Below, one piece after another: positions 1,477 to 25,909 of a DNA stretch of 25,909 nucleotides. Source of the DNA: a virus. The number at the start of each line of letters is the position of its first letter. Positions within the stretch are counted from its first letter, which is position 1. The stretch is taken from positions 1 to 25,909 of IMG/VR virus record IMGVR_UViG_3300030419_005565; one strand, written 5' to 3'. Position numbers and translations under genes: made by a program. Below the pieces are notes generated by a model. The model had not been told where the DNA came from. It ran no database searches and worked only from the letters and a program-made list of their open reading frames with translations.

Positions 1477-2148
1477 ATGGAATTAAATATATCCGAATAC
1501 CATATTCGTAATGTAAGCCCCGATGAATATGGGGTAAAAAGACCACACTACTCCGTATTGTTATCTCACCTATCAACATACTTTAATGATTCTATAATTG
1601 TTGATTTAGGTACACGCGATGGTGACAGTGCAGTTGCTTTAGCTTATAATAAAACTAATCGTATATACACTTATGATATTTCTCATAGTGCAGATGCCGC
1701 AGAAAAATTTGACAACTTTGATAATATTAAGTATATTATAGGTAATTGTTTAGAGTCTAATTGGAATGGAATGACTTTGGATGACGATATACCAAGAAAG
1801 GTATATTTTTCAAGTATAGGCGATAAAACTGACATAAAAGGTAATCCCAAACAAGCTATAAGTGATAAGGAAATATTTTTATCAAGCAAACTCATATTTC
1901 TTGATGTTGACCCACACGATGGTTTACAAGAAAAAATAGTATCAGACTTCTTAATTGAGAACGATTGGAAAGGGGTAATGGTTTGCGATGATATTGGCAC
2001 TGGTAGGGAAGTAGAAAACAGCCACCCAGATATGTTAGCTTGGTGGAATAGTATTGATGTAAGAAAGTATAATATTGCAGATAGTATATACTCTGCTGGT
2101 ACAGGCACTGGTATCATCTGTTTTGACAATCAAAAGGTTATAATTTAA
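1477..2148 (+). CDS. Class I SAM methyltransferase-like protein
   Basis: 223 residues from the ATG at 1477, which directly follows the nuclease stop at 1475; an in-frame start at 1399 would overlap the nuclease deeply and is less likely. IVDLGTRDGDSAVALA at 41-56 resembles a glycine-containing SAM-binding loop, YTYDIS at 64-69 looks like the acidic end of strand 2, LIFLDVDPHDG at 139-149 like motif IV, and VMVCDDIG at 167-174 follows. This order is that of a Rossmann-fold methyltransferase of the kind found in phage and polysaccharide clusters. The substrate is not evident. The stop overlaps the start of the giant glycosyltransferase (TAATG), so it is translationally coupled to it; this supports a role in glycan or methyl-sugar formation by inference only. 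Confidence 0.65.
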   Translation: MELNISEYHIRNVSPDEYGVKRPHYSVLLSHLSTYFNDSIIVDLGTRDGDSAVALAYNKTNRIYTYDISHSADAAEKFDNFDNIKYIIGNCLESNWNGMTLDDDIPRKVYFSSIGDKTDIKGNPKQAISDKEIFLSSKLIFLDVDPHDGLQEKIVSDFLIENDWKGVMVCDDIGTGREVENSHPDMLAWWNSIDVRKYNIADSIYSAGTGTGIICFDNQKVII

Positions 2149-4898
2149 TGAAGACATTTCATATACTACAGTTAGCAGGGTATGGTGATACTTTATCAGC
2201 CATTACAAGACTACCTGCCTTGAAAGAGAAATATCCCGACTATAAAATTAAATTTTGGTTAGGTGGTTTTGGTAAGTCACCACAATTCTCTAAAGAGCAA
2301 TTAGAGAGAGAGGGTTACGAAGCTGCTCTAATTAAAAATCTAACTTTTCATAATCAACTGGCATCTATGCGTGACTTCTTATTAAACAAGGTCGTAAAGT
2401 CAGATGATAAGTTTGAAGATTGGTCATTTTGTGAAGAGATATTTGAGAATAAAAAACCTCACTTTGCACCTTACGATATGCAGTTTCCTTATGAGTATAA
2501 GACAGGTGAACCTACAGAACAAGCAAAAGATATTGTTAGGCAGGTTAAAGAAAAGAGTGGCGTAGCTATTCACCCATTGACCAAAGATGGTAATGCAGAA
2601 GGTTTTGAAAGTGACGTAAACAATGGTAGGTTTTGGAAGAAAGAGTTTTGGCAAGAGATTTGTGAGTTATTGAATGAAAAAGGTTTAACGCCAACATTTG
2701 TTGGTATCAATGATGAGGATTGGGGATTAAGAGAATATTGTGATAGACGGCGTATAGATTATATTGATGCTATGGGTGTTGATGTAGAAAACACTATTCA
2801 TATACTTAAAAATGTATCGGGATGTATTGCATGTAATTCATGGGATTGGGAAGTTACTAGTCGTCTTAATATCCCTACTGTTGTATTTTATACTAAAAAT
2901 CATTTCTTTATTCAGAACCATACACCCCCAACTAATCACCCATTTTGGAATACTTGTTATATAGAAACAAATTGTGTTCAAACTAAAGTAGCCACAATAC
3001 CTGCAGGTGATTCAAGTTTAGCCGGTAGAATAATGAAGGGGCAAGAAGAGCCGTCTGAAATCTTTGATAAGTTTTTCTACTTATATGAAAACAACAAAAG
3101 ACCAGATACAAAATATTCTGTTTGTATGATTACGTATAACGATGAAGAATGTGTAAGAGATACAATGGAAAATGTCACACCATATATAACAGATGATTTT
3201 GTAATTACGGATGGTGGGTCAACAGACAAAACGATAAGTATTATAGAGGAGTATAACGCTAATCTTATTCATAGAAAATGGGATGATAATTTTGAAATTC
3301 AAAAAAATAATTCACTGGATGCAGCAAATCAAGAATGGCGAATTTGGATTGATGCTGATGAAACCTATGAGCCGATATTTTGGAATCAACTATGTTGGTA
3401 TATCAGAGATGCAAATAATCGTGGTGTTGATTGTATTAATGTACCACGCATTAACACAGTAGAAGGTATAACTCAAGAATTTGCTGATCAACAAGCTTGG
3501 AATTTAAGTTATTTTAATTGGGTTAATTATCCCGACTACCAACAAAGGATTTTCAAATCTCATTGTAGGTTCGCTGGCAGAACCCATGAAAGAATTATCA
3601 ATGTTAAAAAAGATGCAGCTATTGTTGGTGTTCATTGTAATCACCCAAAAACATTAGAGAGACAAAAGGCCGGTATTAAAAGAGAACAAGATCAATATAA
3701 GATGACAGCTCAACAGGTTAAGAAAAATATAAACCTTGCTTTTAATAAAAAACTTGTTGTTCACTATCTTCATCATTTAGGTATTGGTGGAACCGCCAAG
3801 GTTGTGCAGATTTTATGTAAATACTTTAAGAAGATGGATAAGGATTTTCACCATGTGTTGGCATACAAAGCACACGGTGAGTTAGAAAGAGAACCATTTT
3901 TTGAAGAAATTCTTGGTAGAGAAAATCTAATACCATATGCATCAGTTCCAGAGTTTTACGAAGTTATTAAAGAGATAAAACCGTTCATAATGCATCGTCA
4001 AACATCTGGTCAACCAGAAATGCCGTTTGTTCCACCTATAGTTGAGCAGTGTAAACACGTAATATCTACCTCTATATTTGGTCACGTAGATGAAAGTATT
4101 AATCTAAGTAGAGCTATATATATCTCTAACAATATGCAACATTGTGCAGGTGTGTTTAATCATAATACAAGATTGATAGCCATTCCTGTAGAAGCTCCTC
4201 TTACCAATGAAGACTTACGAGAAGAACTAGATATACCTCAAGATGCTTTTGTATTCGGTCGTTTGGGAAGAGATGATAATGATATTTATGATCCTATTAA
4301 TCTTGTTTCGTTCGCACAGTTAGAAGATGATAGTTTATATTTTGTAGCTTTATCACCGTCAGAAACTCTGAAAAGAAAAGCTGAAAGTTTAGGTATAACT
4401 AATATCCGTTACGTTGATAAGACCTTAGATGACGTTAGAATCAGTAAGTTCTACAACACACTAAATGTATTAGCTCATAGTAGGAAAGACGGTGAGTGTA
4501 ATCCTGGCAACATTTGGGAGGGTTTCTCACACGGTAAGCCAGTCGTGAGTCATTATGGTATACCTTACAATGGTCACATACAAGAAATTGGTAACTGTGG
4601 TTTTGTTGTTAATAGAAGAGATAACTTTCATAATGTGTGGCAAGATTTAAACCCATCTAGTATTGTAGATATCTTAGAGTATTCACGTAGCATAGGTGTT
4701 GCTAATTTTACTTGTGAAGACAGCACTAATTCCATTAAGAACGACCAAGATGAGTATACAAGAATTATGAGGGCGTTTGCAGATGGAACAATAGATTACG
4801 ATACAATGAGTAAGAATTGTGTTAGTAGATGGGAAAGACAGGCTAAACCAGAAGTTATTACTCAACAACATTTAGATTTATATAAAGAATTATCATAA
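2148..4898 (+). CDS. Three-domain glycosyltransferase: GT9-like, GT2 and GT4 domains
   Basis: 916 residues with three glycosyltransferase units in a row. Residues 1 to about 310 resemble GT9 heptosyltransferases: GYGDTLSAITRLPALKEKYP at 11-30, VAIHPLTKDGN at 139-149, and SGCIACNSWDWEV at 224-236 leading into NIPTVVFY. Residues about 322-525 are a GT2 (GT-A) domain with SVCMITYNDEE, ITDGGSTDKT at 353-362 and the metal-binding IDADE at 401-405. Residues 534-916 are a GT-B domain of GT4 type, beginning VVHYLHHLGIGGTAK and including DAFVFGRLGRDD and the FYNTLNVLAHSRKDGECN block. No membrane segment is apparent, so it should act in the cytoplasm. Such a protein could add three sugars in succession to one acceptor. 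The GT4 part is duplicated as a separate gene at 5789-6877. Donor and acceptor are unknown; an activated heptose is suggested by the neighbouring pathway genes. Confidence 0.85.
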   Translation: MKTFHILQLAGYGDTLSAITRLPALKEKYPDYKIKFWLGGFGKSPQFSKEQLEREGYEAALIKNLTFHNQLASMRDFLLNKVVKSDDKFEDWSFCEEIFENKKPHFAPYDMQFPYEYKTGEPTEQAKDIVRQVKEKSGVAIHPLTKDGNAEGFESDVNNGRFWKKEFWQEICELLNEKGLTPTFVGINDEDWGLREYCDRRRIDYIDAMGVDVENTIHILKNVSGCIACNSWDWEVTSRLNIPTVVFYTKNHFFIQNHTPPTNHPFWNTCYIETNCVQTKVATIPAGDSSLAGRIMKGQEEPSEIFDKFFYLYENNKRPDTKYSVCMITYNDEECVRDTMENVTPYITDDFVITDGGSTDKTISIIEEYNANLIHRKWDDNFEIQKNNSLDAANQEWRIWIDADETYEPIFWNQLCWYIRDANNRGVDCINVPRINTVEGITQEFADQQAWNLSYFNWVNYPDYQQRIFKSHCRFAGRTHERIINVKKDAAIVGVHCNHPKTLERQKAGIKREQDQYKMTAQQVKKNINLAFNKKLVVHYLHHLGIGGTAKVVQILCKYFKKMDKDFHHVLAYKAHGELEREPFFEEILGRENLIPYASVPEFYEVIKEIKPFIMHRQTSGQPEMPFVPPIVEQCKHVISTSIFGHVDESINLSRAIYISNNMQHCAGVFNHNTRLIAIPVEAPLTNEDLREELDIPQDAFVFGRLGRDDNDIYDPINLVSFAQLEDDSLYFVALSPSETLKRKAESLGITNIRYVDKTLDDVRISKFYNTLNVLAHSRKDGECNPGNIWEGFSHGKPVVSHYGIPYNGHIQEIGNCGFVVNRRDNFHNVWQDLNPSSIVDILEYSRSIGVANFTCEDSTNSIKNDQDEYTRIMRAFADGTIDYDTMSKNCVSRWERQAKPEVITQQHLDLYKELS
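3747..4895 (+). repeat. Copy 1 of duplicated GT4 domain (inside the fusion gene)
   Basis: Coding repeat seen at protein level: residues 534-916 of the fusion match the 362-residue enzyme encoded at 5843-6874 in order and nearly without large gaps. DNA similarity is only patchy, so the duplication is not recent or has diverged under selection. Confidence 0.8.
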
Positions 4899-4922
4899 TA
4901 AGTTTTGTTTAAAGGAGAAAAT

Positions 4923-5789
4923 ATGTTTGACCCAAAAGATGTGCATGTAATACTTATTGGATGCCAACGAACCCAAGATTATCGACACAACCTTGAAATT
5001 ATGAGGTATAACTATCCAGACATAGGCACTAAGTTATGGATTACCACCGTCTTTAATGGCGATCAAAATCACTGCCCATCTGGTGTAGGAGAAAACACTT
5101 TTATATATCTGCCTGAAAATACAGGTTATGGATATGGAGCTTTAGATTCTTTTAATGCAGGTTTGGATTTTGCACGTTGTGGATATAGACCTTATGTAGC
5201 TATATTTAATTTTGATGTTTGGTTTCTGACACAAAATGGTTTTAGAACAGCTATGAGCGATTTTATTGAAAGTGGTAAGCAGTTTGCGGCAGGTTATCAC
5301 CAAACTCATCATTGGGCTATGACAGATTGTATGTTTTTCCGAAGAGAGTTTTTAGAAAAACTATTACCCATACAAGATAAGGTTTTGAATAGTCGTAAAG
5401 AAAATGATTGGCTTAAGAAACAAATGAGCGGTACTCAGCTTGGATTTGAAAATATGGAAGAGTGGATGCTTTATTCCTTAAATCGTGCAGTAAGTGATGG
5501 CATTCCGCGTGTTCTTGTCAACAATAAAACAAATGATGATCTTATGAATAATATTGATCCTAAAATTATAGAGGCGTGGTTTCAAATGGAAAGGGATGGT
5601 CACCCAAGATATAGGTATACAGAAAAATATAAGCTTATCCATGAACATGATGACGAAATTAAAAAGCAATTGTTAAAGGATAACAATGCTACCAAGGGTC
5701 ATAACATCTGTAAATATTTGGGTGTGAAGATACCACATAAAGTTTTGAATGATGTTCGCCAACCAGATGGTTCAACAATGGCAATCTAA
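4923..5789 (+). CDS. Putative GT-A-fold glycosyltransferase-like protein
   Basis: 288 residues from the ATG at 4923, picked over an in-frame start at 4905 because AAAGGAG lies at 4911-4917. The beginning VHVILIGCQR and the segment YVAIFNFDVWFLT (about residues 93-105) are arranged like a GT-A nucleotide-sugar fold, with FDVW in the place of the usual DxD metal site; ENTGYGYGALDSFNAGL just before it resembles the GT2 region ahead of the DxD. No close family was recognised. It lies between a multi-domain glycosyltransferase and a GT4 enzyme, and its stop overlaps the next start (TAATG), which supports a glycan role. Function by fold and context only; it could instead be a non-catalytic partner. 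Confidence 0.5.
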   Translation: MFDPKDVHVILIGCQRTQDYRHNLEIMRYNYPDIGTKLWITTVFNGDQNHCPSGVGENTFIYLPENTGYGYGALDSFNAGLDFARCGYRPYVAIFNFDVWFLTQNGFRTAMSDFIESGKQFAAGYHQTHHWAMTDCMFFRREFLEKLLPIQDKVLNSRKENDWLKKQMSGTQLGFENMEEWMLYSLNRAVSDGIPRVLVNNKTNDDLMNNIDPKIIEAWFQMERDGHPRYRYTEKYKLIHEHDDEIKKQLLKDNNATKGHNICKYLGVKIPHKVLNDVRQPDGSTMAI

Positions 5790-6877
5790 TGTTACGATCA
5801 ATATCTTCACTATCATTACAGACATCTGATATATCAAGAAGAAAACCAATTGTGATTCACCATCATAATCAACTTACGATGGGTGGCACAGAAAAGATGA
5901 GTCAAATATTTTGTAGACACTTTGTAAAAGATAATACTTTTGAACATTATGTAGCTTATAAAAAAGGTGTAGAAAACACAAGAGAACCTTACTTTAAAGA
6001 AATAGTAGGGGCGGAGAAAATGTTATGTTACGAGTCTCCTTCAGAGTTGTTAAACATCATAAAAGAAAAGAAGCCGTTTATATTGCACAGATATTCGGCT
6101 GGTATACCCGAATTTCCCTTCGTGAAAGAAATAAAAGAGCATACTCGCCATTTTGTTTCAACTGCCGTATTTGGTAATCAAGATAATACGATTGATATAA
6201 GTAAAGTAATTTATGTATCAAAACATATACAATGGTTAGCTGGCACTCAAGACACAAAGAATCATCATGTAGTTAGAAACCCAATTGAAAGCCCATACTC
6301 TACAGAAAACTTAAGAGAAGAGCTTGGTATACCCGATGATGCTTTTGTGTTTGGTAGAATTGGTAGAGATGATGAAAGTATATATGAAAACATAAATATC
6401 AGAGCTTATGCGCAAGTAGAACGTGATAATGTTTACTTTGTATTAGTTGCGCCTTCCGATAAATGTCGAGATGATATTAGGCGACTTGGTATTAAAAATG
6501 CAAAGTTTATTGAACGAACCACAAGTGAAGTTCGTATTTCACAATTCTATAATACAATAGACGTTCAAGCTCATGCGCGGCGTGATGGTGAATGTAATTC
6601 AGCAGCACACTTTGAAGGGTTTGCACATAGAGTTCCATTAATATCTCACTACGGGGAAAACTTTAATGGTCACATGGAAACTACTGGTGATGCAGGGTTT
6701 ATAGTTCTACCTAACGATGTAGAAGAATATGCGAGAATAATGAAAGCTTTCATAGACAAACAAATAGACTATGAAACACTAAGTAACAATGCATATATGC
6801 AATGGTGTAAGGTAACACCAGAGCTTATGGGTAATGCTCAATTAGATATTTACAAAGAATTATTGAAAGCCACTTGA
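5789..6877 (+). CDS. GT4-type glycosyltransferase, paralogue of the last domain of the three-domain enzyme
   Basis: 362 residues of GT-B architecture. From about residue 19 onward it aligns along its length with residues 534-916 of the upstream fusion: both share an LREEL-IP-DAFVFGR-GRDD block, RIS-FYNT followed by AH-R-DGECN, an EGF-H segment, ISHYGENFNGH or its equivalent, and an LDIYKEL or LDLYKEL end. This is a gene duplication with divergence. The GT4 fold transfers a sugar from a nucleotide donor; donor and acceptor are not known. It starts by TAATG overlap with the gene before it. Its stop TGA lies inside the -35 box of a downstream promoter (TTGACA at 6874-6879), so this is probably the end of a transcription unit, with a new one starting at once. 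Confidence 0.85.
   Translation: MLRSISSLSLQTSDISRRKPIVIHHHNQLTMGGTEKMSQIFCRHFVKDNTFEHYVAYKKGVENTREPYFKEIVGAEKMLCYESPSELLNIIKEKKPFILHRYSAGIPEFPFVKEIKEHTRHFVSTAVFGNQDNTIDISKVIYVSKHIQWLAGTQDTKNHHVVRNPIESPYSTENLREELGIPDDAFVFGRIGRDDESIYENINIRAYAQVERDNVYFVLVAPSDKCRDDIRRLGIKNAKFIERTTSEVRISQFYNTIDVQAHARRDGECNSAAHFEGFAHRVPLISHYGENFNGHMETTGDAGFIVLPNDVEEYARIMKAFIDKQIDYETLSNNAYMQWCKVTPELMGNAQLDIYKELLKAT
5843..6874 (+). repeat. Copy 2 of duplicated GT4 domain (free-standing gene)
   Basis: Second copy of the domain at 3747-4895. Its first residues (VIHHHNQLTMGGTEKMSQIF) line up with VVHYLHHLGIGGTAKVVQIL of copy 1, and both end with a -LDxYKEL- segment. Copy 2 lacks the roughly 20-30 residue insertion around the NVWQDLNPSS segment of copy 1. 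Confidence 0.8.
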
Positions 6878-6904
6878 CATATATAAAAAAATTGCTTATA
6901 TTAT
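6874..6904 (+). promoter_or_regulatory. Sigma-70-type promoter upstream of the epimerase gene
   Basis: TTGACA at 6874-6879, a 17-base spacer, then TATATT at 6897-6902 (extended TATATTATAG). The same box pair with the same spacing recurs at 14305, 18359, 24445 and 25647. The -35 box contains the stop codon of the upstream glycosyltransferase. The gene at 6944 starts 70 bases after the first base of the -35 box. Confidence 0.85.
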
Positions 6905-6943
6905 AGTATGTAAATTATAATTTTGTAAAAAGGATAACTAATA

Positions 6944-7933
6944 ATGGCTAGACATCTAATATCGGGTTGTGCAGGTTTTGTTGGTAGCAATCTTGTTCGT
7001 AGACTTTTAAAAGAAGGTCATCAAGTTTGGGGAGTAGATAGTTTGATATGTGGTTTCATGGAGAACATGAACGATTTTATTGATCACCCAAATTTTAAAT
7101 TTAGAGCTACTGATATTCGCGCAGAAAATGTTTGTGATAATATAAATCAAACCATCGACTATGTGTGGCACCTTGCAGCAAGAGGTGAAACATATTGGTG
7201 TAGAGATAATGTAGAAGAGGCGTTGGATGTTAATGTTAACGGTACATTAAACATTTTAAAACAAGCAAAGAAACTCCGTGCAAAACATTTCTATTTTTCC
7301 GATACCTCTGCAGAGTATGATAATATTATAGGTGAAGAAAATTATCCCACTGCAGAAACCGATGCACCAAACACAATTACTCCTATGGGTTATTATGCTA
7401 TTACTAAAATGGCAGCTTCACAATTTGTAAGAAGTTATGGTGAGTCACATGGTTTTGGAACAACGCTTTTTCGTTACACCAATATTTATGGCCCCTCTAT
7501 GAATCTTGAGAGAGACATACCTCCTGTGGTTGGGTCTTTTGCATCACGACTATTTGATAATAAAATTCCTATAATATATGGTGATGGTTCAAAGCGAAGA
7601 GATTTTTTACATATTGACGATCTAACTGATTTTCATATGGCTGCATTAGAATCAAGAGGTGGTAAGTCTGGAAGTGAAACTTACAATGCTGGCTTTGGAA
7701 AAAATTACTCTATCTTACAGGTATATCACAGAGTTCAAGAATCTTGTAGAAAAATTATGGATGGCACTGTGGCGTTAGTAGAATATAAAGACGATCAACC
7801 AAACGAAGCTCAGATTACATTAGCTAACATACAAAAAGCTAAAGATGAATTAGGGTGGCAACCTAAAATTTCATTTGAAGAAGGTGTAGAAAAAACTGTT
7901 AAAGGTTTATGGGAGATGAGAAATGACGGTTAG
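6944..7933 (+). CDS. NAD-dependent nucleotide-sugar epimerase/dehydratase (extended SDR)
   Basis: 329 residues. The NAD-binding GCAGFVGSN is at 8-16, HLAA at 77-80, a FSDTSAEYD segment at 118-126, the catalytic YYAITK (Y151, K155) and the substrate-side GDGSKRRDFLHIDDL at 213-227. This is the UDP-glucose 4-epimerase-like branch of extended short-chain dehydrogenases, acting on a nucleotide sugar in the cytoplasm. Given the heptose genes around it, an NDP-heptose epimerase role is possible, but the motifs do not show the substrate; epimerisation of another NDP-hexose is as likely. Its own promoter lies just upstream and GTAAAAAGGATAAC gives a fair ribosome site. The last 11 bases overlap the next gene. 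The length is normal for the family. Confidence 0.85.
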   Translation: MARHLISGCAGFVGSNLVRRLLKEGHQVWGVDSLICGFMENMNDFIDHPNFKFRATDIRAENVCDNINQTIDYVWHLAARGETYWCRDNVEEALDVNVNGTLNILKQAKKLRAKHFYFSDTSAEYDNIIGEENYPTAETDAPNTITPMGYYAITKMAASQFVRSYGESHGFGTTLFRYTNIYGPSMNLERDIPPVVGSFASRLFDNKIPIIYGDGSKRRDFLHIDDLTDFHMAALESRGGKSGSETYNAGFGKNYSILQVYHRVQESCRKIMDGTVALVEYKDDQPNEAQITLANIQKAKDELGWQPKISFEEGVEKTVKGLWEMRNDG

Positions 7934-16042: not shown

Positions 16043-17203
16043 ATGCCAAGAAAAAAAGTGACCACTAGTGAGAGCGCTGTTGATGCTGATAACAGCGTTC
16101 TCACCGATATTATTGTAGACTCCCTTAATAAGAAGATAGGTGATGTTGCCTATATTATGGGAAAGGGAGAAAGCCCTGCTGAAGTAAAGGAGTGGCTTTC
16201 TACTGGCTCCACTGTTTTAGACACGATTATTTCTAATGACCCCGAAGCTCCTGGCGGTATACCTGTTGGTAAGTTAGTAGAAATAAGTGGTGAAGCTGCC
16301 ACAGGTAAATCACTTTTATCATATATGATTTTGAAAGATTGTCAAGATAGAGGTGGTATACCAATTCTTATTGATACGGAAAATGCAGCTAATTGGAGTT
16401 TTTTAAAGTTGCTTGGATTAAAGGAACAAGCAGAAGGTGGTAACCTTGTATATCTGCAACCCGAAACCATTGAAGAAGTGTTTCAAGGTATTGAGGAAAT
16501 AGTTCGTAGAATACGAGAGAATGATAAGAATAAACTATGTTGTATTGTTTGGGATTCTATTGCGGGTACTTCAACCAAAGCAGAAATTCAAGGTGAGTAT
16601 GGTGACTCTACCATTGGATTAGGTGCAAGACTTATTGGTCAAGGTCTACGCAAGAGTATTCGTTTCATAGGTAATCAGAGAATATCACTAGTCTTTTTGA
16701 ATCAAGTTAGAGAAAAGATTGGTGGTATGGTGTTTGGTGATCCTACAGTATCGCCTGGCGGTAAAGCGGTTCCATTCTTTTCGTCAGTAAGGGTTAAACT
16801 TTACAGTGGTGGTAAAGTAAAAGCAGGTCAAGATACAATTGGTGTTGGTATTAAACCGAAGATTATTAAGAACCGTTTAGGTCCGCCGCATCGTGAAGCA
16901 GAACTCAAAATGTATTTTAATCGTGGATTGATTGATGAAGAAAGCTGGCTTGATGTTTTACTAAAGGCTGATGTTGCAGAAAAGATTTCACAACAAAAGT
17001 CTGCCATTACCAACACAGAAACGGGTGAGGTTTATGAGTTCCAAAACCGTAAATTTGTTGAATGGATTAGAAAGTCAGAAAACGCAGAGGCGCACGCTTT
17101 CTGTAAGAAAATGGTTAAACAATCATTGATCATAGAACAAGACCCACACAAACGAAGGGAAGAAGTAACCACAGAAGCATTAGGCGAGGATGAAGTAATC
17201 TAA
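16043..17203 (+). CDS. uvsX: RecA/UvsX-like recombinase
   Basis: 386 residues. Walker A is GEAATGKS at 83-90, Walker B CCIVWDSI at 166-173, and the RecA-specific LVFLNQVREKIG at 216-227 and PGGKAVPFFSSVRV at 238-251 follow. It forms filaments on single-stranded DNA and drives strand exchange for repair and recombination-dependent replication. The glycine-rich loop reads AATGKS rather than the bacterial ESSGKT, as in phage enzymes. Placement right after the gp32-like gene agrees, since the two proteins work together. No intein or frameshift is present. The stop overlaps the next gene (TAATG). Confidence 0.95.
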   Translation: MPRKKVTTSESAVDADNSVLTDIIVDSLNKKIGDVAYIMGKGESPAEVKEWLSTGSTVLDTIISNDPEAPGGIPVGKLVEISGEAATGKSLLSYMILKDCQDRGGIPILIDTENAANWSFLKLLGLKEQAEGGNLVYLQPETIEEVFQGIEEIVRRIRENDKNKLCCIVWDSIAGTSTKAEIQGEYGDSTIGLGARLIGQGLRKSIRFIGNQRISLVFLNQVREKIGGMVFGDPTVSPGGKAVPFFSSVRVKLYSGGKVKAGQDTIGVGIKPKIIKNRLGPPHREAELKMYFNRGLIDEESWLDVLLKADVAEKISQQKSAITNTETGEVYEFQNRKFVEWIRKSENAEAHAFCKKMVKQSLIIEQDPHKRREEVTTEALGEDEVI

Positions 17204-17478
17204 TGAAATATTGGGAAAAGATAAAAGAGCCTATCGTTAAAACAGAAACCCCGTGGCTTGTAAAGTTTATGTGGTGTGTTGGTTTCTTAATTGGTGTTAC
17301 CATTGTTGGACTTTTTGCTGTTTTTGCATATCTTGTTTTAGGTTATTTCTTTTCCCTATTGTGGAACTTTTCTGTAGCCCCAGTATTTGGTGCAAATGAA
17401 CTTACACCATATACTGGGGCAGCATTATTGTTTGCTTATTTCACTGGTATAAAATTAACGAAGTGGTTGTTCAAGTAA
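17203..17478 (+). CDS. Small inner-membrane protein with two or more membrane segments
   Basis: 91 residues. A long hydrophobic stretch covers residues about 24-55 (FMWCVGFLIGVTIVGLFAVF and onward) and a second one about 72-86 (GAALLFAYFTGIKL). The N-terminus is basic and probably cytoplasmic, and the last residues KWLFK are basic too. It starts by TAATG overlap with uvsX. Near its end the coding sequence contains a near-perfect 16-base inverted repeat (17377-17420). Function unknown; a holin would fit the size and the 3D-domain protein that follows, but this is a guess. Confidence 0.75.
   Translation: MKYWEKIKEPIVKTETPWLVKFMWCVGFLIGVTIVGLFAVFAYLVLGYFFSLLWNFSVAPVFGANELTPYTGAALLFAYFTGIKLTKWLFK
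17377..17420 (+). repeat. Near-perfect 16-base inverted repeat (hairpin) inside a coding region
   Basis: GCCCCAGTATTTGGTG at 17377-17392 pairs with CACCATATACTGGGGC at 17405-17420: 15 of 16 bases match, with a 12-base loop. It is much richer in G and C than its surroundings. No T-run follows, so it is not an intrinsic terminator. Confidence 0.8.
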
Positions 17479-17582
17479 AATCTAATAAAATATTTTCCGA
17501 AAAATGAATTTAAATTTTTTTAAATGATAGTGTATTTTTATGGAATTTTTGCGCTATATTTATACTACCAACGAGGAATAAG

Positions 17583-18152
17583 ATGAAGAAGGAAAACTTA
17601 AAAACCGTAGTTATTATGCTCCTATCGGTGATTTTTGTGTCACATAGTATAGAGAAGAAAAATATTATAGATGATCTAAATGACCGAGTAGATTTTTTAA
17701 ATCTTAAAGTATCGGTGGCAGATTCACTTGTTAAAAGCACCACGGTTAACGGCCTTATTTTAGCCGATAAATTGATGACATATCAAAATAGATTAAAGGA
17801 TATTGAGGCAAACACACATAAAATAGTTGTAACTATGTATCACCCTGTTCCCGATCAAACAGATGATACACCAAACATCACAGCCGATGGAACTGTTATT
17901 AAAATAAAGAGAGCAAGTGAATATAGATATGTAGCGGTTTCAAGAAATATGCTTGTAAAGAATGGCGGTTTTCTTAAGTTTGGAGATTATGTTTGGGTAG
18001 ATGCCGGTAAAAAGTCTGGTGTGTATCAAGTTAGAGATACGATGAATGCAAGATTTACAGATCGTATAGATATTTTAGAATCGCCAGGAGTTAAGCCTTA
18101 TAAGTATGATCATGCTTCTATGAGAAAAATAGATTATAATAGTGGGATATAA
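17583..18152 (+). CDS. Membrane-anchored 3D-domain (RlpA/MltA-like barrel) protein, possible cell-wall lytic enzyme
   Basis: 189 residues. Residues 7-20 (KTVVIMLLSVIFVS) form an N-terminal membrane anchor without a clear cleavage site. Residues 25-75 look like a coiled coil (DDLNDRVDFLNLKVSVADSL). Residues 82-170 match the 3D domain: VTMYHPVPDQTDDTPNITAD at 83-102, RYVAVSRNML at 115-124, FGDYVWVDAG at 133-142 and VRDTMNARFTDRIDI at 150-164, with the aspartates D152, D160 and D163. In MltA and related barrels such aspartates cleave peptidoglycan. The protein would sit in the inner membrane with the barrel in the periplasm, and could be a lysis or wall-remodelling enzyme. CGAGGAAT at 17571-17578 is the ribosome site. 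The 104-base gap before it has no clear promoter. Confidence 0.72.
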   Translation: MKKENLKTVVIMLLSVIFVSHSIEKKNIIDDLNDRVDFLNLKVSVADSLVKSTTVNGLILADKLMTYQNRLKDIEANTHKIVVTMYHPVPDQTDDTPNITADGTVIKIKRASEYRYVAVSRNMLVKNGGFLKFGDYVWVDAGKKSGVYQVRDTMNARFTDRIDILESPGVKPYKYDHASMRKIDYNSGI

Positions 18153-18190
18153 AATGGTAATCAAATATTATAATTCAACAATATTAATCA

Positions 18191-18436
18191 ATGGTTTTTA
18201 TTATGTTAATCACACTTAGAATTTGGTTTTGGACATTCATGGAGTATGGTGTTTGGTATACGGGCAGTGGTAGAATAAGCAAATTAAAGCAGAAAAGATG
18301 GGCTATTAGATTAGCAAAAATTAGAGAACAAGAACTGTTATCAGAACAAAGAAAAAGCTTGACAACATGGAAAGACTTTCTTATATTATATAGAGTTTTT
18401 GCAAAACGTCTCTTAACGAATATGGTGATATGGTAA
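18191..18436 (+). CDS. Small basic protein with N-terminal hydrophobic segment, unknown
   Basis: 81 residues; a second in-frame ATG at 18203 would give 77 and cannot be separated because neither has a clear ribosome site. The first 20 residues are hydrophobic and aromatic (MLITLRIWFWTFMEYGVWY from the second ATG), the rest is basic and helical (KLKQKRWAIRLAKIREQELL). It would be a membrane-attached protein with a basic cytoplasmic part. A promoter for the next gene (18359-18390) lies inside its coding sequence, so it is not certain that the frame is used. It fills the gap between two good genes. Confidence 0.5.
   Translation: MVFIMLITLRIWFWTFMEYGVWYTGSGRISKLKQKRWAIRLAKIREQELLSEQRKSLTTWKDFLILYRVFAKRLLTNMVIW
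18359..18390 (+). promoter_or_regulatory. Sigma-70-type promoter upstream of the 5' nuclease gene, inside a small coding frame
   Basis: TTGACA at 18359-18364, 17-base spacer, TATATT at 18382-18387 within TATATTATA. AAAAAGCTTGACAA around the -35 box resembles the promoters at 14305 and 24445. The nuclease ATG is 82 bases after the -35 box. Confidence 0.8.
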
Positions 18437-18440
18437 CAAT

Positions 18441-19412
18441 ATGAAAAAGGTTTTACTGATTGATTTAATGAATATGTTTGTTAGAAACTTTTCTGCGGTT
18501 AGACTAACAAATGATAACGGTGAGCATGTTGGCGGTGTATATGGCACTCTCAATAGTTTACAATCGCAGATAAAAAAGCATAACCCCGATATTGTTTCGG
18601 TGGTGTGGGAAGGTAAGGGTTCATCAGAACGGCGTAGACGCACGCTAAAGGAATACAAAGAGGGTAGAAAGTTTAGAGGTCTTAATAGACACTTTGAATA
18701 CTCACAAGAAGACGAGTCGGCATCCTTTGCCAGACAACTCCAATTACTTAAAGAGTGTTTAGATTTACTACCTGTATATCAACCGGCAGTTCAGTATTTA
18801 GAAGCCGATGATCAAATAGCATATTCCTGTAGAACTTTCTTCAAAGATGAAACAAAAGTCATTGTCTCTACTGATAGAGATTTTTTTCAGTTAGTCGATA
18901 ACAACACCTCTGTATATCGACCAGTTAAGACTAAAGAAAATCCAAAAGGTGAGATGATAGATATGAGTTACATGGTAGATAAAGAGGATGTTTTTCCACC
19001 TAATTACGCACTTCTAAAGGCTATCGTTGGTGATAAGAGTGACAACATCAATGGTATCTCAGGCGTTGGTGAGAAGAGTGTTAAACGGGATTTTCCTCTA
19101 TTATCAACCAATGAAGATATGGATGTGGATAGTGTTTTAGATTACGCACGAAATCAAAAGAATAAGAAGTATCAAAAGTATATTGATAATGAGGATTTGT
19201 TAAGAAGGAATTATAAGATAGTACAACTCTTGGATGTGGATGTAAATATACAATCAATTCAAGCGTTAGAAAAAAGTTATGAAAATAAGGATTTAAAGTT
19301 TAATTCTTATCAACTTAGACTTAAGTTGTTGAGTGAAGATATATCACCAAGTAACATTGACAATTGGGTATCATCATTTATGTCGGTTTCACGCGAACCA
19401 GTAATACTGTAA
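18441..19412 (+). CDS. 5'-3' exonuclease / flap endonuclease (T4 RNase H-like)
   Basis: 323 residues of the FEN family, which removes RNA primers and 5' flaps on the lagging strand. The acidic metal ligands are visible: VLLIDLMN with D8, YLEADDQIAY at 119-128 with E121, D123 and D124, VSTDRDFFQLV at 142-152 with D145 and D147, and GDKSDNINGISGVGEKSV at 197-214 with D198 and D201 leading into the helix-hairpin-helix. The arginine-rich EGKGSSERRRRTLKEYK at 57-73 is the helical-arch part. Own promoter just upstream; only 10 bases separate it from the helicase gene, so the two are cotranscribed. Confidence 0.93.
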   Translation: MKKVLLIDLMNMFVRNFSAVRLTNDNGEHVGGVYGTLNSLQSQIKKHNPDIVSVVWEGKGSSERRRRTLKEYKEGRKFRGLNRHFEYSQEDESASFARQLQLLKECLDLLPVYQPAVQYLEADDQIAYSCRTFFKDETKVIVSTDRDFFQLVDNNTSVYRPVKTKENPKGEMIDMSYMVDKEDVFPPNYALLKAIVGDKSDNINGISGVGEKSVKRDFPLLSTNEDMDVDSVLDYARNQKNKKYQKYIDNEDLLRRNYKIVQLLDVDVNIQSIQALEKSYENKDLKFNSYQLRLKLLSEDISPSNIDNWVSSFMSVSREPVIL

Positions 19413-19422
19413 GGAGAATATA

Positions 19423-20769
19423 ATGTCGTATACGGATGTTGACTCTTTCAAGTCTTTTGGAACAAATTTTCAGAATTGTGTTCTTCAGGCGGCTTTGATT
19501 GACAGAGATTTTTTTGAAAAGAGTTTTGAAGTCTTAAAAGAAGAATACTTTACATCTGAAGCACACAAAACAGTTTGGTTAGAGATAAGAAAACTATTTA
19601 ATAAGTATAGCGCACCACCCACCTATGACACTTTAAAAACAGAAATTTCCCAATACCCCGAAGGTGAGTTAAAAGAATCTACTATTAACGTGTTGTTAGA
19701 TATTGAAACAAAAGTTAATCGTCAAGAGATTGAGTATGCGAAGGATAAGTCATTAGAGTTTTGTAGAAATCAATCTATGAAAGGGGCAATTCTGCAATCA
19801 GTTGATCTGTTAAAAGAAGGTAAGTTTGAAGAGATTCAGAAAACCATTGAAGATAGTCTAAGGATTAGCACCGAACAAGATATGGGTCACGACTATTTTG
19901 ACTCGTTCAAGTCTCGCCAACAAGTTCATACAAGGTCTTGTATCCCTACAGGATTCCCTCTCTTGGATCAAAGTAGTGTATTGGATGGTGGGTTAGCTCA
20001 TGGTGAGTTAGGCGTTGTAATGGCACCTACAGGCGGCGGTAAGAGTTTTATGTTGGTTAACTTTGGGTATGGTGCTTTAGCTGCAGGTAAGAATGTTGTT
20101 CACTATACTTTTGAGTTAAGTGAAACACACGTAGGTAATCGTTATGATAGTCGCATTACAAGCATTCCCACAAAAGAATTACGTAGTCGTATGTCAGAAG
20201 CTGAAGGGCAACTAGCTAATTTTAATGGTGGTCAATTGTTTATTAAAGAGTATCCACCAAAGGTTGCTACGATTAATACTATTAAGTTTCATATGGGTAG
20301 ATTACTATCGAATGGTTTTAGCCCCGATCTAATTATAATTGATTATGGTGATTTGATGAAGAGTCGCCGCGGCTATGATCAAAAACGATTTGAGTTAGAA
20401 AGTATATTTGAAGATCTTCGTGCATTGTCTATGGAAATGAAGTTACCTATATGGACAGCTACTCAAAGCAATCGTGATGGATTTAATGATGATGTGATTA
20501 CTATTGATAAAGTTGGTGAAGCAATCAACAAGGCGATGGTTGTAGATTTCTTCGGAACTTTTTCACAACGTAAATTTCATGTTGGTAAGAATCGTATGGG
20601 TCAGGCTAATATTAATTTTAATATTGAGATGGACCCAGCACGTAGTTTCATTGATCTTAATGAAGACATGCCATCTACTGGTGGTTTTTCTATCAACGAA
20701 AAAGTTAATAATATGTTAAATGGTGGTGATAAAATGAGGTCTTTGTATAGAGATTTTAAAGAAGGATAA
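19423..20769 (+). CDS. Replicative DNA helicase, DnaB/T4 gp41-like
   Basis: 448 residues. An N-terminal domain (1 to about 150, with NCVLQAALIDRDFFEKS and helical repeats) resembles the DnaB primase-interacting domain. The RecA-type motor follows: TGFPLLDQ at 176-183, Walker A APTGGGKS at 201-208, YTFELSE at 228-234, Walker B LIIIDYGDL at 303-311 and WTATQSNR at 344-351. It unwinds DNA 5' to 3' as a hexamer at the fork. The length is like T4 gp41. AAGGAG at 19411-19416 is the ribosome site, overlapping the stop of the nuclease gene. A primase gene is not in the window. Confidence 0.93.
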   Translation: MSYTDVDSFKSFGTNFQNCVLQAALIDRDFFEKSFEVLKEEYFTSEAHKTVWLEIRKLFNKYSAPPTYDTLKTEISQYPEGELKESTINVLLDIETKVNRQEIEYAKDKSLEFCRNQSMKGAILQSVDLLKEGKFEEIQKTIEDSLRISTEQDMGHDYFDSFKSRQQVHTRSCIPTGFPLLDQSSVLDGGLAHGELGVVMAPTGGGKSFMLVNFGYGALAAGKNVVHYTFELSETHVGNRYDSRITSIPTKELRSRMSEAEGQLANFNGGQLFIKEYPPKVATINTIKFHMGRLLSNGFSPDLIIIDYGDLMKSRRGYDQKRFELESIFEDLRALSMEMKLPIWTATQSNRDGFNDDVITIDKVGEAINKAMVVDFFGTFSQRKFHVGKNRMGQANINFNIEMDPARSFIDLNEDMPSTGGFSINEKVNNMLNGGDKMRSLYRDFKEG

Positions 20770-20774
20770 TAGAT

Positions 20775-21020
20775 ATGGAAAGGTTTACAATTACTAAAAC
20801 TCATCGGTGGGGTAATGCCGATACTCGTATATCTCACGTATATTCAGCAGCACGTAGGGATGTTAAAAAGGATGATGTAATACGTATTGCAAATCAAATG
20901 ATAGAAAACGAAAGAGTTCATACCAACGAAGAAGTTGAATATGAAGTTTTATTAGCTTACGATAATGGTAATACAGAATTTATACATCGTGTGGAGAAGG
21001 GTGGTAAAAGGAGTCTTTAA
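20775..21020 (+). CDS. Small protein of unknown function
   Basis: 81 residues, not recognised. The sequence mixes beta-prone ends (ERFTITKTHRWGNADTRISH; EVEYEVLLAYDNGNTEFIHR) with a central helix (DVIRIANQMIENERVHT), a small alpha/beta look. It follows the helicase by 5 bases and its stop overlaps the zinc-ribbon start (TAATG), so it is in the replication transcript. Confidence 0.65.
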   Translation: MERFTITKTHRWGNADTRISHVYSAARRDVKKDDVIRIANQMIENERVHTNEEVEYEVLLAYDNGNTEFIHRVEKGGKRSL

Positions 21021-21238
21021 TGATTTATGAATTTAAATGTGAAGCTTGTAACCACGAATTTGAAATACAGTGTATGGTTTCAGAATACGATAAATACAAA
21101 AAACAATCATGTCCTAAATGCAAAAGCAAAAAAGTTAATAGAGTAATTACACCTGTAAGTATTAGCTTTGGTAGGGGTTTTTTTAAAGACGGATATGATA
21201 GTGCAAAAAATTTAACCTCAAACCAAAACGGAGAATAA
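21020..21238 (+). CDS. FmdB-type zinc-ribbon protein
   Basis: 72 residues. It begins MIYEFKCEACNHEFEIQCMV, the typical opening of FmdB-family zinc ribbons, with CEAC at 8-11 and CPKC at 31-34 as the four metal ligands, followed by KKVNRVITPVSISFGRGFFK. Members are often called putative regulatory proteins; the true role is not established. The gene starts by TAATG overlap and ends two bases before the ribonucleotide reductase start, whose ribosome site lies in its last codons. Confidence 0.85.
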   Translation: MIYEFKCEACNHEFEIQCMVSEYDKYKKQSCPKCKSKKVNRVITPVSISFGRGFFKDGYDSAKNLTSNQNGE

Positions 21239-21240
21239 CA

Positions 21241-23091
21241 TTGGACATATCACAAAAGATTTTATCTGAAGTTACCGTGCATATGAAGTATGCAAGGTAT
21301 CTTCCTACTGAACAAAGAAGAGAAACATGGAAGGAACTTATTACAAGAAACCGTGATATGCACATCGCAAATTTTCCACAATTCAAATCTAATATAGAAA
21401 AAGCTTATGAGTTGGTATATGAAAAGAAAGTTTGCCCTTCCATGAGATCATTACAGTTTGCAGGTGCTGCTATTAAACAAACTCCATCACGTATATATAA
21501 TTGTGCTTACTTACCAGTTGATGACTACAGAGCGTTTAGTGAAATAATGTTTTTACTATTAGGCGGAACAGGTGTCGGTTACTCTGTTCAAAAGCACCAC
21601 GTAGAAAAATTACCATCTATTACAGTACCTACAAAGAAACGTAGATACTTGGTCGGTGATAGTATTGAAGGTTGGGCTGATTGTATAAAGATGTTGATGA
21701 AGGCTTACTTTCTTGGAAAGCCTGAACCCGATTTTGATTTTAGTGGTATTAGACCAAAAGGTGCTCTACTAGTAACGAGTGGCGGTAAGGCTCCCGGCCC
21801 CGAACCATTAAAAGACTGCGTTCACAATATTAAGAGAATATTTGATAGGAAAGAAAATGGTGAACAGTTATCTACTTTGGAAGTGCATGACATCATTTGT
21901 TGGATTGCAGATGCAGTATTATCTGGTGGTATCCGCAGGTCTGCTACTATTAGCTTGTTTTCCCTTGATGATAAGGATATGTTACAATGTAAGTTTGGTA
22001 ATTGGTGGGAAACAGAACCACAAAGAGCAAGAGCAAATAATTCTGCTGTAGTTGTAAGACATAGAGTAAAGAAAAAAGATTTCTTTAATATTTGGGAAAA
22101 GGTAAAAGAAAGTGGAGCAGGTGAGCCAGGAGTTTATTTTACCAATGACCAAGATTGGGGAACTAATCCTTGTGCTGAAATTGCACTAAGACCTTTTCAG
22201 TTTTGTAATCTATGTGAGGTAAATGTTAGTGATGTAGAAACACAAGAAGATCTTAATAACAGAGTTTCCGCTGCATCTCTTATTGGAACACTTCAAGCAG
22301 CTTATACAAACTTTCACTATCTGAGAGATGTGTGGCGTCGCACTACGGAGAAAGATGCTCTATTAGGTATTGGTATGACGGGTATCGGTAGTGGCAAAGT
22401 TCAAAAGTTAGATTTGGAAGAGGCTGCTAAGTTAGCGGTTTCTACTAACAAATACTATGCAGCCGAGTTGGGTATTAACTCTGCAGCGAGAGTAACAACG
22501 GTCAAACCTAGTGGAACGACATCTTGTGTTTTAGGAACATCTAGTGGTATTCACGCTTGGCATAATGATTTTTATATTCGTAGAATTAGAGTAGGAAAGA
22601 ACGAAGCTATCTACAACTATTTAGCTATCAACCACCCCGAACTTGTTGAAGACGATTTCTTCAAGGCTGACACTCAAGCTATAATTTCTATTCCACAACG
22701 AGCGCCAGAACACGGTATACTACGACATGAAACATCAATAGAGTTATTGAACAGAGTAAAAGATATCTACGAACGATGGATTGCTCCTGGCCACACTAGC
22801 GGTAACAATACACATAATGTTTCTTGCACCGTATCTGTTAAAGAAGAGGAGTGGGATGAAGTTGGAAAGTGGATGTGGGAAAACCGCGAATTTTATAACG
22901 GGTTGTCTGTGTTACCGTATTATGGCGGTACTCATAAACAAATGCCTTTTGAAGATACTGATGAGCAAACTTTTAATGAATTATTTAATAATCTAAGAGA
23001 AGTAGATTTATCTGGTGTAGTAGAGGTAATAGACAACACTAATCTTACAGGTGAACTAGCATGTGCTGGCGGATCTTGTGAAGTAACTTAA
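21241..23091 (+). CDS. nrdJ: Adenosylcobalamin-dependent (class II) ribonucleotide reductase, monomeric RTPR type
   Basis: 616 residues. It reduces ribonucleotides (triphosphates in the RTPR type) to deoxyribonucleotides using vitamin B12. TNPCAEI at 308-314 holds the radical-site C311 with N309 and E313. C322 lies 11 residues on, exactly as C419 follows C408 in the Lactobacillus enzyme, and pairs with C88 (IYNCAY) as the active-site disulfide. KPSGTTSCVLGTSSGIH at 422-438 is the phosphate-binding part. The C-terminal CAGGSC (C608, C613) has the spacing of the thiol shuttle. The start is TTG at 21241 with CGGAGAA just before it; the next ATG would remove conserved residues (KYARYLPTEQRRETW follows immediately). 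No class I subunit is present. It needs cobalamin from the host. Confidence 0.93.
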   Translation: MDISQKILSEVTVHMKYARYLPTEQRRETWKELITRNRDMHIANFPQFKSNIEKAYELVYEKKVCPSMRSLQFAGAAIKQTPSRIYNCAYLPVDDYRAFSEIMFLLLGGTGVGYSVQKHHVEKLPSITVPTKKRRYLVGDSIEGWADCIKMLMKAYFLGKPEPDFDFSGIRPKGALLVTSGGKAPGPEPLKDCVHNIKRIFDRKENGEQLSTLEVHDIICWIADAVLSGGIRRSATISLFSLDDKDMLQCKFGNWWETEPQRARANNSAVVVRHRVKKKDFFNIWEKVKESGAGEPGVYFTNDQDWGTNPCAEIALRPFQFCNLCEVNVSDVETQEDLNNRVSAASLIGTLQAAYTNFHYLRDVWRRTTEKDALLGIGMTGIGSGKVQKLDLEEAAKLAVSTNKYYAAELGINSAARVTTVKPSGTTSCVLGTSSGIHAWHNDFYIRRIRVGKNEAIYNYLAINHPELVEDDFFKADTQAIISIPQRAPEHGILRHETSIELLNRVKDIYERWIAPGHTSGNNTHNVSCTVSVKEEEWDEVGKWMWENREFYNGLSVLPYYGGTHKQMPFEDTDEQTFNELFNNLREVDLSGVVEVIDNTNLTGELACAGGSCEVT

Positions 23092-24523: not shown

Positions 24524-25642
24524 ATGAATCAATTAGTAATAAGCAACGAGTATACAAAAGAGTGGTGGGAAATGAAAAACTATACTTACAATTCTTGGCA
24601 ACCGCCAGCTCGTGACGAACATAAAATAGAAGGTGTAGAACATCTTGGAATGGAATTTTTTTACTTAAAAGATGTTGTGGCTTACGAACAAGATCAGATA
24701 AGATCTGATGATAATCTTGATAAAAGGGTTAGTGAAATTGGTCGTGATTTAAAGACAAAGGGGTTTAGACCAGAATGTATGCTACCTCAAGTTGTTATGG
24801 AACCTAGCGGTCCGAGAATATGTAGTGGATTCGCTAGAGATGAAAATTTTAGAGAAATAGTTCGACAGCAACCAGAAGCTATGTGGCCGATGGACGTTTT
24901 TAGATTTGAAAGCAAGGCTGCCGAAATAAAATTTCAAATGTCTGTGAACGATCACGGCAGTTCATTCAAAAACACAGAAAACGATTTAATTGAGAGTTTG
25001 CTCACACTTAGCGCAAGTGGGCGACTTAAACATGATAAAACCGAAATTTTAAATGAAATTGAACGATGTGCTCCTAATTTTGGAAGTGACTCTCAAAAGA
25101 ACGGAGTTGCAAAAAAGGTATTCAAACAAATTGAAAAAAAAGTGGTGGCAGAACATATCATGTCATTTTCTGAAAGTAAGTTACGAAAAGCTGTTAATCG
25201 TAATATAGCTGGTTGGGATGAATACTCACCAAAGGGGTTTGAAAGTTCAAAACGATTAACAAATGGAAACGGTATAGTACAAAGGGTTTATTTTGGCCAA
25301 ACTTCAGAATTTGATTCTTACCTTATGAGAGATTTTTTTAAGGTTCTAGAAGACCCATCAATGAAGATGGAGATAGCATCTGTTGTCAAGGATACAGTAT
25401 CAGCACCCTCTTTCCTTAGAGATAAACGCCAACAGCAATATGATAAGTTTAAAAAGTACAGGTCTATTGCTATTAATATTATTATGAGAAACAATAAGTT
25501 AAATAGAAAAGAGGCAGAAAAAACCATTGATGATCAAATAAAATTTTTAGGTTGGGTGCCTCAAGATATGACAAATGAAATTGATAAGGGTGTTTTATTT
25601 GTTTCATTAAGTGATTTTTTAACAGATAACCCCAACAGGTAA
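24524..25642 (+). CDS. Protein of unknown function, possibly with a ParB-like N-terminal part
   Basis: 372 residues, not recognised with certainty. Residues about 63-112 (DKRVSEIGRDLKTKGFRPEC, then VVMEPSGPRICSGFARDENF) have the layout of the ParB/Srx fold: a helix that ends in G-x-x-P, a strand, then a G-x-R-like turn and helix. The catalytic GERR motif of ParB is not clear. The remainder is mostly helical and polar (NDLIESLLTLSASGRLKHDK; RSIAINIIMRNNKLNRKEAE). CGGAGGAATAAGG at 24509-24521 contains the ribosome site. A single gene behind a strong promoter suggests a product needed in quantity or early. It could be a DNA-binding or nuclease-related protein. Confidence 0.7.
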   Translation: MNQLVISNEYTKEWWEMKNYTYNSWQPPARDEHKIEGVEHLGMEFFYLKDVVAYEQDQIRSDDNLDKRVSEIGRDLKTKGFRPECMLPQVVMEPSGPRICSGFARDENFREIVRQQPEAMWPMDVFRFESKAAEIKFQMSVNDHGSSFKNTENDLIESLLTLSASGRLKHDKTEILNEIERCAPNFGSDSQKNGVAKKVFKQIEKKVVAEHIMSFSESKLRKAVNRNIAGWDEYSPKGFESSKRLTNGNGIVQRVYFGQTSEFDSYLMRDFFKVLEDPSMKMEIASVVKDTVSAPSFLRDKRQQQYDKFKKYRSIAINIIMRNNKLNRKEAEKTIDDQIKFLGWVPQDMTNEIDKGVLFVSLSDFLTDNPNR

Positions 25643-25646
25643 GGTC

Positions 25647-25678
25647 TTGACAAATTAGATAAAGTTTCGTATATTATA
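25647..25678 (+). promoter_or_regulatory. Sigma-70-type promoter upstream of the edge-cut gene
   Basis: TTGACA at 25647-25652, 17-base spacer, TATATT at 25670-25675 within TATATTATATAA. Fifth copy of the same promoter type. AGGAG follows at 25693-25697. Confidence 0.85.
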
Positions 25679-25705
25679 TAAACATTTTAAACAGGAGATT
25701 TTATC

Positions 25706-25909
25706 ATCAATATATTTTATGTAGACCCAAACCCTACCGTAGCTGCCTCCAATTTATTAGATAAGCATGTTGTCAAGATGCCCTTAGAGTCTGCACAGAT
25801 GTTGTGTACGGCTCATAGGGTTCTTGACGATGCACAAATAGTAGCAGGTCAACCTTTATATAAGATAGCTCATAAAAACCACCCAAGTTCTGTTTGGGCA
25901 AGACAAACC
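25706..25909 (+). CDS. Conserved marine-phage protein of unknown function, 3' end cut by window edge; apparent ATC start
   Basis: The frame from 25706 reads xNIFYVDPNPTVAASNLLDK, then HVVKMPLESAQMLCTAHRVL and LYKIAHKNHPSSVWARQ up to the window edge. From memory this equals an unnamed protein common in cyanophages and other marine T4-like phages (MNIFY-, DKHVVKM-LE-AQML-TAHR, HKNHPS-W-R). The frame is closed upstream by TAA at 25688-25690, and no ATG, GTG or TTG lies between that stop and the conserved start. ATC at 25706-25708 stands exactly where relatives have their ATG, with AGGAG 8 bases before. The start is therefore a rare ATC, an ATA at 25712, or a sequencing error. At least 68 residues are inside the window. 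Confidence 0.75.
   Translation, partial: MNIFYVDPNPTVAASNLLDKHVVKMPLESAQMLCTAHRVLDDAQIVAGQPLYKIAHKNHPSSVWARQT

Follow-up and report, generated by a model that had tools for sequence, protein, structure and literature searches.

The gene cut off by the right-hand end of the viral DNA analysed here very probably has a real AUC start codon, and comparison with its relatives presents it as an example of the AUU/AUC starts that recur in a repair-type family of phage proteins. This DNA, hereafter the window, is IMG/VR virus record IMGVR_UViG_3300030419_005565 over its positions 1 to 25,909; the features of the start site are listed in Table 1 together with three exonuclease-like genes from other contigs.

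Table 1. Features of the start site in the window and further genes with an apparent ATT start
Feature	Contig	Position	Strand	Remark
Sigma-70-type promoter match, TTGACA - 17 nt - TATATT	Window	25647..25675	+	11/12 consensus positions; consensus match only
In-frame TAA closing the frame 5' of the start	Window	25688..25690	+	Read from sequence
Shine-Dalgarno AGGAG	Window	25693..25697	+	8 nt 5' of ATC 25706
Tandem ATC, alternative start codon	Window	25703..25705	+	5 nt from GGAG
Probable ATC start codon	Window	25706..25708	+	Occupies the ATG position of relatives
PHROG 624 / Pyr_excise (pyrimidine-dimer glycosylase-like) gene, 5' 68 codons	Window	25706..25909	+	Truncated by contig end
First in-frame ATG (Met25), within conserved core	Window	25778..25780	+	M25 invariant in 51 aligned members
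Exonuclease/RNase H-like gene, apparent ATT start after AGGAG	L119	4829-5689		
Exonuclease/RNase H-like gene, apparent ATT start after AGGAG	L159	3662-4501	minus	
Exonuclease/RNase H-like gene, apparent ATT start after AGGAG	L162	2719-3558		

A first-pass annotation of the window had described a frame that is closed upstream and offers no ATG, GTG or TTG before the conserved segment, and reading the codons bears this out: the TAA lies in frame, separated by 18 bases from the ATC at 25706, and is followed by ACA GGA GAT TTT ATC ATC AAT ATA TTT TAT, with none of the three usual start codons ahead of the conserved core. The annotation had also placed this ATC where relatives have their ATG; among the 80 relatives that were kept for comparison at the start (of 255 found), 75 indeed have ATG exactly there, the others having TTG (2), GTG (1), ATC (1, in the contig L002) and ATT (1, in L024). 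Its further points, namely an AGGAG at normal distance and a strong promoter just upstream, stand as well, with 8 nt between AGGAG and ATC and 11 of 12 consensus matches in the promoter, whose sequence is the same in L002. The same start codon was thus found in a relative, as the annotation had envisaged, and that relative is a diverged one: L002 is a second phage contig, 93% identical to the window over 2.4 kb, which matches it exactly around the start but carries numerous substitutions and an indel of 6 bases in the gene upstream. The annotation had considered, finally, that relatives might begin at the later in-frame ATG; none of the 80 examined does so, and a start at that codon would remove N2, I3, F4 and P10, all four invariant in 51 aligned members. 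Folding of the leader RNA at the start gave nothing notable (z 0.5). As an observation apart from the start codon, the window and L002 are the same but for a single base between about 25589 and 25827, a stretch that spans the start site; beyond it, still within the glycosylase gene, their similarity drops abruptly, at what looks like a recombination junction.

On sequence similarity, the gene is predicted to encode a phage pyrimidine-dimer DNA glycosylase-like protein of PHROG 624. The 68-codon fragment in the window matches the profile of PHROG 624 (annotated “DNA binding protein”) at an E value of 1e-27 and had no match in a Pfam search at 0.001. Its full-length homologue in L002, an intact frame of 167 residues, matches Pfam PF03013 Pyr_excise (pyrimidine-dimer glycosylase) at 1.1e-7, above the cut-off; PF03013 is matched at 0.001 by 34 of the 51 aligned members, and the matches of L088, L151 and L200 fall below the cut-off. 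When an AlphaFold2 model of the L002 protein (pLDDT 95.4) was compared with 50 chains by VIA-align, the best match was T4 endonuclease V (1enk, Z 8.1, 116 aligned residues, rmsd 3.5; 2end, Z 8.0), with the next chain at Z 3.5, values to be read with the mostly helical nature of the model in mind, as Z near 8 can be common for such folds. Foldseek alone gave no match for the model at an E value of 0.001, and a sequence search of solved structures gave none. The link of the family to T4 endonuclease V, as far as the model goes, is one of fold and Pfam profile rather than of direct sequence. E28, a possible counterpart of the catalytic glutamate of T4 endonuclease V, is invariant in the 51 members, as is N2, and the VIA alignment, for which end points alone were reported, sets model residue 1 against chain residue 2 at its start; from these end points we infer that the first residue of PHROG 624 proteins would sit near the catalytic amine of T4 endonuclease V.

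Elsewhere in the window, positions 16043-23091 hold a tailed-phage replication block with genes for a UvsX/RecA-like recombinase, a 5'-3' exonuclease, a DnaB-like helicase and a ribonucleotide reductase, the last of which has a B12-type insertion domain below the cut-off and a TTG start in its listed ORF. Sugar genes at 2148-7933 comprise a 916-residue ORF with a glycosyltransferase domain of family 2 and a GDP-mannose dehydratase/epimerase-like protein. No tRNA or tmRNA was found in a search of the window, and no similar DNA was found in named phages for 25640-25909 (distant search) or 1-25000 (near search).

The first-pass annotation had treated the ATC start as an isolated rarity, and on this point it has to be revised, as a minority of the family uses ATT or ATC, mostly with a strong and tightly spaced Shine-Dalgarno sequence. 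A scan in which the start codon was left open gave ATG in 104, GTG in nine, ATT in four, ATC in one and TTG in one of 119 sampled members (rows read from 120 stretches). A pattern scan for ATH starts returned at least 119 stretches, most of which belong to the family, with ATT or ATC in nearly every case. At the start of the 272 family ORFs that cover the N-terminus (of 276, four being without the N-terminal part), a set that includes duplicates and is ATH-enriched by design, we found ATG 175, ATT 69, ATC 13, GTG 10, TTG 4 and ATA 1, and nothing else. With one strict motif, furthermore, a complete scan found 101 viral contigs with ATT (93) or ATC (8) versus a single one with ATA. These 101 contigs collapse to 70 when those sharing both the leader and the initial 60 residues are counted once; 69 carry the Lys-Met motif of the family, the remaining row is cut after 17 residues, and seven of the 70 are ORFs shorter than 60 residues, most of them presumably cut by contig ends. 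Internal Ile codons of the near-cognate genes are ATT 282, ATC 172 and ATA 130, and the start codons depart from this usage (chi-square p 1e-11 for 71 unique starts, which are phylogenetically non-independent). Since ATA is nearly absent as a start despite its 130 internal occurrences, the near-cognate starts are not simply a matter of Ile codon usage. The position of the start appears to be locked in the family, the sampled members having a start-type codon immediately ahead of the invariant Asn-Ile-Phe.

Among isolates, 601 records have a match, and the 12 inspected start with ATG (10) or GTG (2), none with ATT or ATC; HTVC008M and Melnitz-3, which are among the closest to the ATT clades, have GTG. 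A further PHROG 624-like member, in which the start context contains ATT, lies at 1930-1970 (minus strand) of L464, a contig binned as an uncultured Bacteroidetes MAG and perhaps a phage contig.

Initiation at the weak codon itself would be expected to leave a signature in the strength and spacing of the Shine-Dalgarno sequence, such as the following. In deduplicated rows, GGAG or a stronger motif precedes ATT in 46 of 52, ATC in 8 of 8 and ATG in 35 of 160. When near-cognate rows were restricted to the unambiguous ones, that is, those with a closed frame and no ATG, GTG or TTG upstream (38 of 59, the 21 ambiguous rows being dropped), GGAG was present in 33 of 38 and absent from five, versus 36 of 170 ATG rows with GGAG (Fisher p 3e-14); in the strict-motif set, 59 of the 70 have a strong Shine-Dalgarno sequence. 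The spacing is similarly tight: of 58 tree rows, 52 have GGAG, at a distance to ATT or ATC of 6 nt (20 rows), 7 nt (29) or 8 nt (3), and the distance varies from 3 to 12 nt in the 35 ATG rows having the motif. A strong Shine-Dalgarno sequence as a host-wide habit is not supported, for neighbour ORFs are no richer in it at near-cognate loci (103/417) than elsewhere (231/953), by a crude count that includes non-genes. As a separate observation, the T4 regB gene (2280-2741 of L463) is annotated as encoding the RegB endoribonuclease, which cleaves a subset of T4 mRNAs at GGAG, the motif enriched before near-cognate starts.

The history of the start codon was followed on a FastTree phylogeny with many weak branches, built after removal of exact leader-plus-protein duplicates, rows of less than 60 residues and the duplicate loci L001 and L082-L087. 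The supported branches imply a minimum of eight changes between near-cognate and NTG starts in the strict set, with ambiguous rows removed, and 10 changes for ATT and five for ATC in the wider set, gains and losses being pooled in these counts. The largest all-ATT clade contains 10 rows, reaching down to 57% identity and with GGAG in seven; there are three clades mixing ATT and ATC, and 16 lone near-cognate rows. Near-cognate starts thus seem to have changed several times and, in some clades, to have persisted while the members diverged widely. In tree-aware pairs, a strong Shine-Dalgarno sequence goes with the near-cognate codon in 5.6 of 8 on average and against it in 0.0 (median p 0.03); with ambiguous rows kept, the figures are 7.3 of 10 and 0.0 (median p 0.016).

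Within the window (33 ORFs), the PHROG 624 gene is the sole near-cognate candidate. Six raw candidates were obtained in G006 (whole contig, 193 selected ORFs) and four in G007 (first 115,000 of 116,030 bases, 125 ORFs), and in each the PHROG 624 gene alone was judged convincing by eye. The filter is incomplete, as its single candidate in G008 was not the PHROG 624 gene even though the ATT is present there. A genome-wide relaxed start rule was not seen in G006 and G007, where most other candidates have a weaker Shine-Dalgarno sequence or a nearby NTG; these other candidates include an ATA with GGAG 6 nt before it (G006 118244-118594, minus strand) and an ATT after AGGA whose next NTG is 16 codons on (G007 70867-71610). 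Control gene clusters from the same loci have ATT, ATC and ATA at 10, 1 and 2 of 413 aligned codons, a count in which 14 of 34 clusters are without a clear start column and many of the columns fall elsewhere than at a start. Of these cases, the exonuclease-like genes of L119, L159 and L162 alone look real when inspected (Table 1), and the PHROG 624 gene in each of these contigs also starts with ATT. Their cluster is that of window 18441-19412 (Pfam 5_3_exonuc), which we take to correspond to T4 RNase H. A pattern scan of this exonuclease family (121 rows longer than 150 residues) gave ATG in 119 and ATT in two, one of the two with an upstream ATG or GTG; L356 and L431 may carry further exonuclease-like genes starting with ATT. 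Near-cognate starts are, by the look of these sequences, not confined to PHROG 624.

We consider real initiation at AUC 25706 to be highly probable. A strong sigma-70-type promoter would give a short leader carrying AGGAG, which, lying 8 nt upstream, would guide the ribosome to this AUC, where initiator fMet-tRNA would start translation. The position of the start would be fixed, so that a gene losing its ATG would keep the site and use AUU or AUC there, usually compensated by the strong, tightly spaced Shine-Dalgarno sequence; the weak codon might then be kept because the level of a DNA-incising enzyme stays low. As a whole, this reading, from fMet initiation at a position-locked AUC and Shine-Dalgarno compensation to, perhaps, a scarce DNA-cutting enzyme, is the probable one. 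A selected role of the near-cognate codon in dosage is by itself somewhat doubtful. More tentative, and on balance rather unlikely, is the idea that the start codon serves as an evolvable dial of dose, ATG having repeatedly given way to AUU or AUC with an optimised Shine-Dalgarno sequence so that the enzyme is held low; the start could not move, on this idea, because the N-terminus lies in the active site, like the alpha-amine in T4 endonuclease V. A bolder version adds that weak initiation would lead to drop-off of fMet, leaving part of the product with Asn2 as its first residue and a free amine there; drop-off of fMet with weak start pairing is described in vitro by Katoh and Suga (PMC10158994).

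The main rival to a role in dosage is tolerated drift with compensation: ATG would have mutated to ATC, the strong Shine-Dalgarno sequence would keep enough translation, and the codon would serve no regulatory purpose. The nearest kin, L003-L006, start with ATG, ATG, TTG and ATG and already have GGAG in their leaders, and ATG prevails in the sampled family, as given above. On the tree, the window and L002 form an ATC pair among ATG/TTG kin that we judged to be recent, and because L003-L006 use ATG or TTG, the ATC in this clade could be drift. Drift alone, nonetheless, would not readily explain why ATT and ATC are retained in clades of such low identity, why ATA is nearly absent though it is equally one step from ATG, or why the strength of the Shine-Dalgarno sequence tracks the codon on independent branches with tight spacing; we regard it as unlikely. 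Improbable to a greater degree is a conditional switch, in which the level of IF3 or the state of the host would control translation by analogy with the autoregulation of infC, making the enzyme stage-specific. Near-cognate codons with an extended Shine-Dalgarno sequence do occur in infC, cvfC1 and ccpN of Staphylococcus aureus, ccpN being responsive to the medium (PMC13009471), but most members of the PHROG 624 family have ATG.

Very improbable is another start codon, either the ATC at 25703 or, for some members, a start further upstream that overlaps the Shine-Dalgarno sequence (e.g., one giving Met-Glu-Val-Leu-Ile-Asn-Ile). The window does have two tandem ATC codons, and a possible upstream start (ATG, GTG or TTG in an open frame) exists in 21 of 59 near-cognate rows; it lies four codons upstream in six of them, as an ATG overlapping GGAGG in L100, L104, L136 and L178, TTG in L185 and GTG in L151, and L464 likewise has an in-frame ATG overlapping the Shine-Dalgarno sequence four codons upstream of its ATT. 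The window is, however, without any upstream NTG, as are 38 of the 59 rows, and of the tandem codons 25706 is favoured over 25703, because none of the GGAG-bearing ATT/ATC rows has the 5-nt spacing of 25703, all 52 falling within 6-8 nt, and relatives start directly before N2. An error of sequencing or assembly, or decay of the gene, as a single contig with the gene at its edge might suggest, is extremely improbable, because two diverged contigs carry the ATC, which makes a shared error unlikely, and the promoter match, Shine-Dalgarno sequence and frame are intact in both.

To our knowledge, standard gene callers take only ATG, GTG and TTG as starts, and callers limited in this way would truncate or miss genes like the near-cognate members of PHROG 624. 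The starts of this family make near-cognate initiation in phages open to direct test with cheap reporters, and suggest that ATT and ATC should be accepted at conserved N-termini when start codons are surveyed in viral metagenomes. Our search of the literature found nothing on near-cognate starts in the PHROG 624 phage family, which does not prove their absence from it.

Phage proteins of PHROG 624 and PF03013, annotated either as “DNA binding protein” or as pyrimidine dimer DNA glycosylase, belong to the same family by profile, and the 12 inspected isolate genes of PHROG 624 differ from the window in having ATG or GTG in place of ATC. ORF91 of cyanophage S-CREM1 is reported to be a pyrimidine dimer DNA glycosylase, its membership in PHROG 624 being unconfirmed, and related cyanophage genes are termed overlooked pyrimidine dimer glycosylases in the same paper, the available portion of which makes no mention of near-cognate starts (PMC9964418). 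In T4 endonuclease V, to which the predicted fold of L002 aligns in both 1enk and 2end, catalysis relies on a threonine that is coded second in denV and forms the N-terminus of the enzyme, its amine acting as the nucleophile (PMC3285167); in PHROG 624 the second coded residue is Asn instead.

In E. coli, infC and pcnB start with AUU. In S. aureus, near-cognate starts with extended Shine-Dalgarno sequences are described for infC (AUA), cvfC1 (AUU) and ccpN (AUA), and reporters with such starts gave about 10% of the AUG level in poor medium and, for one gene, up to 30% in rich medium (PMC13009471). The pncA gene of Borrelia burgdorferi has an AUU start that databases missed, as the annotation begins at a later residue, and its N-terminus is needed for the fold (PMC13398362); it resembles the PHROG 624 case in its AUU start but is a single bacterial gene, for which the start was shown experimentally. 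The S. aureus and E. coli genes share with PHROG 624 a non-NTG codon at a conserved start, a strong Shine-Dalgarno sequence and good spacing. They are, however, bacterial genes with AUU or AUA that were characterized by ribosome profiling and reporters, whereas PHROG 624 is a phage repair-type family in which AUU and AUC are read from sequence alone, and the repeated changes of the start codon on the tree distinguish PHROG 624 from these known near-cognate genes.
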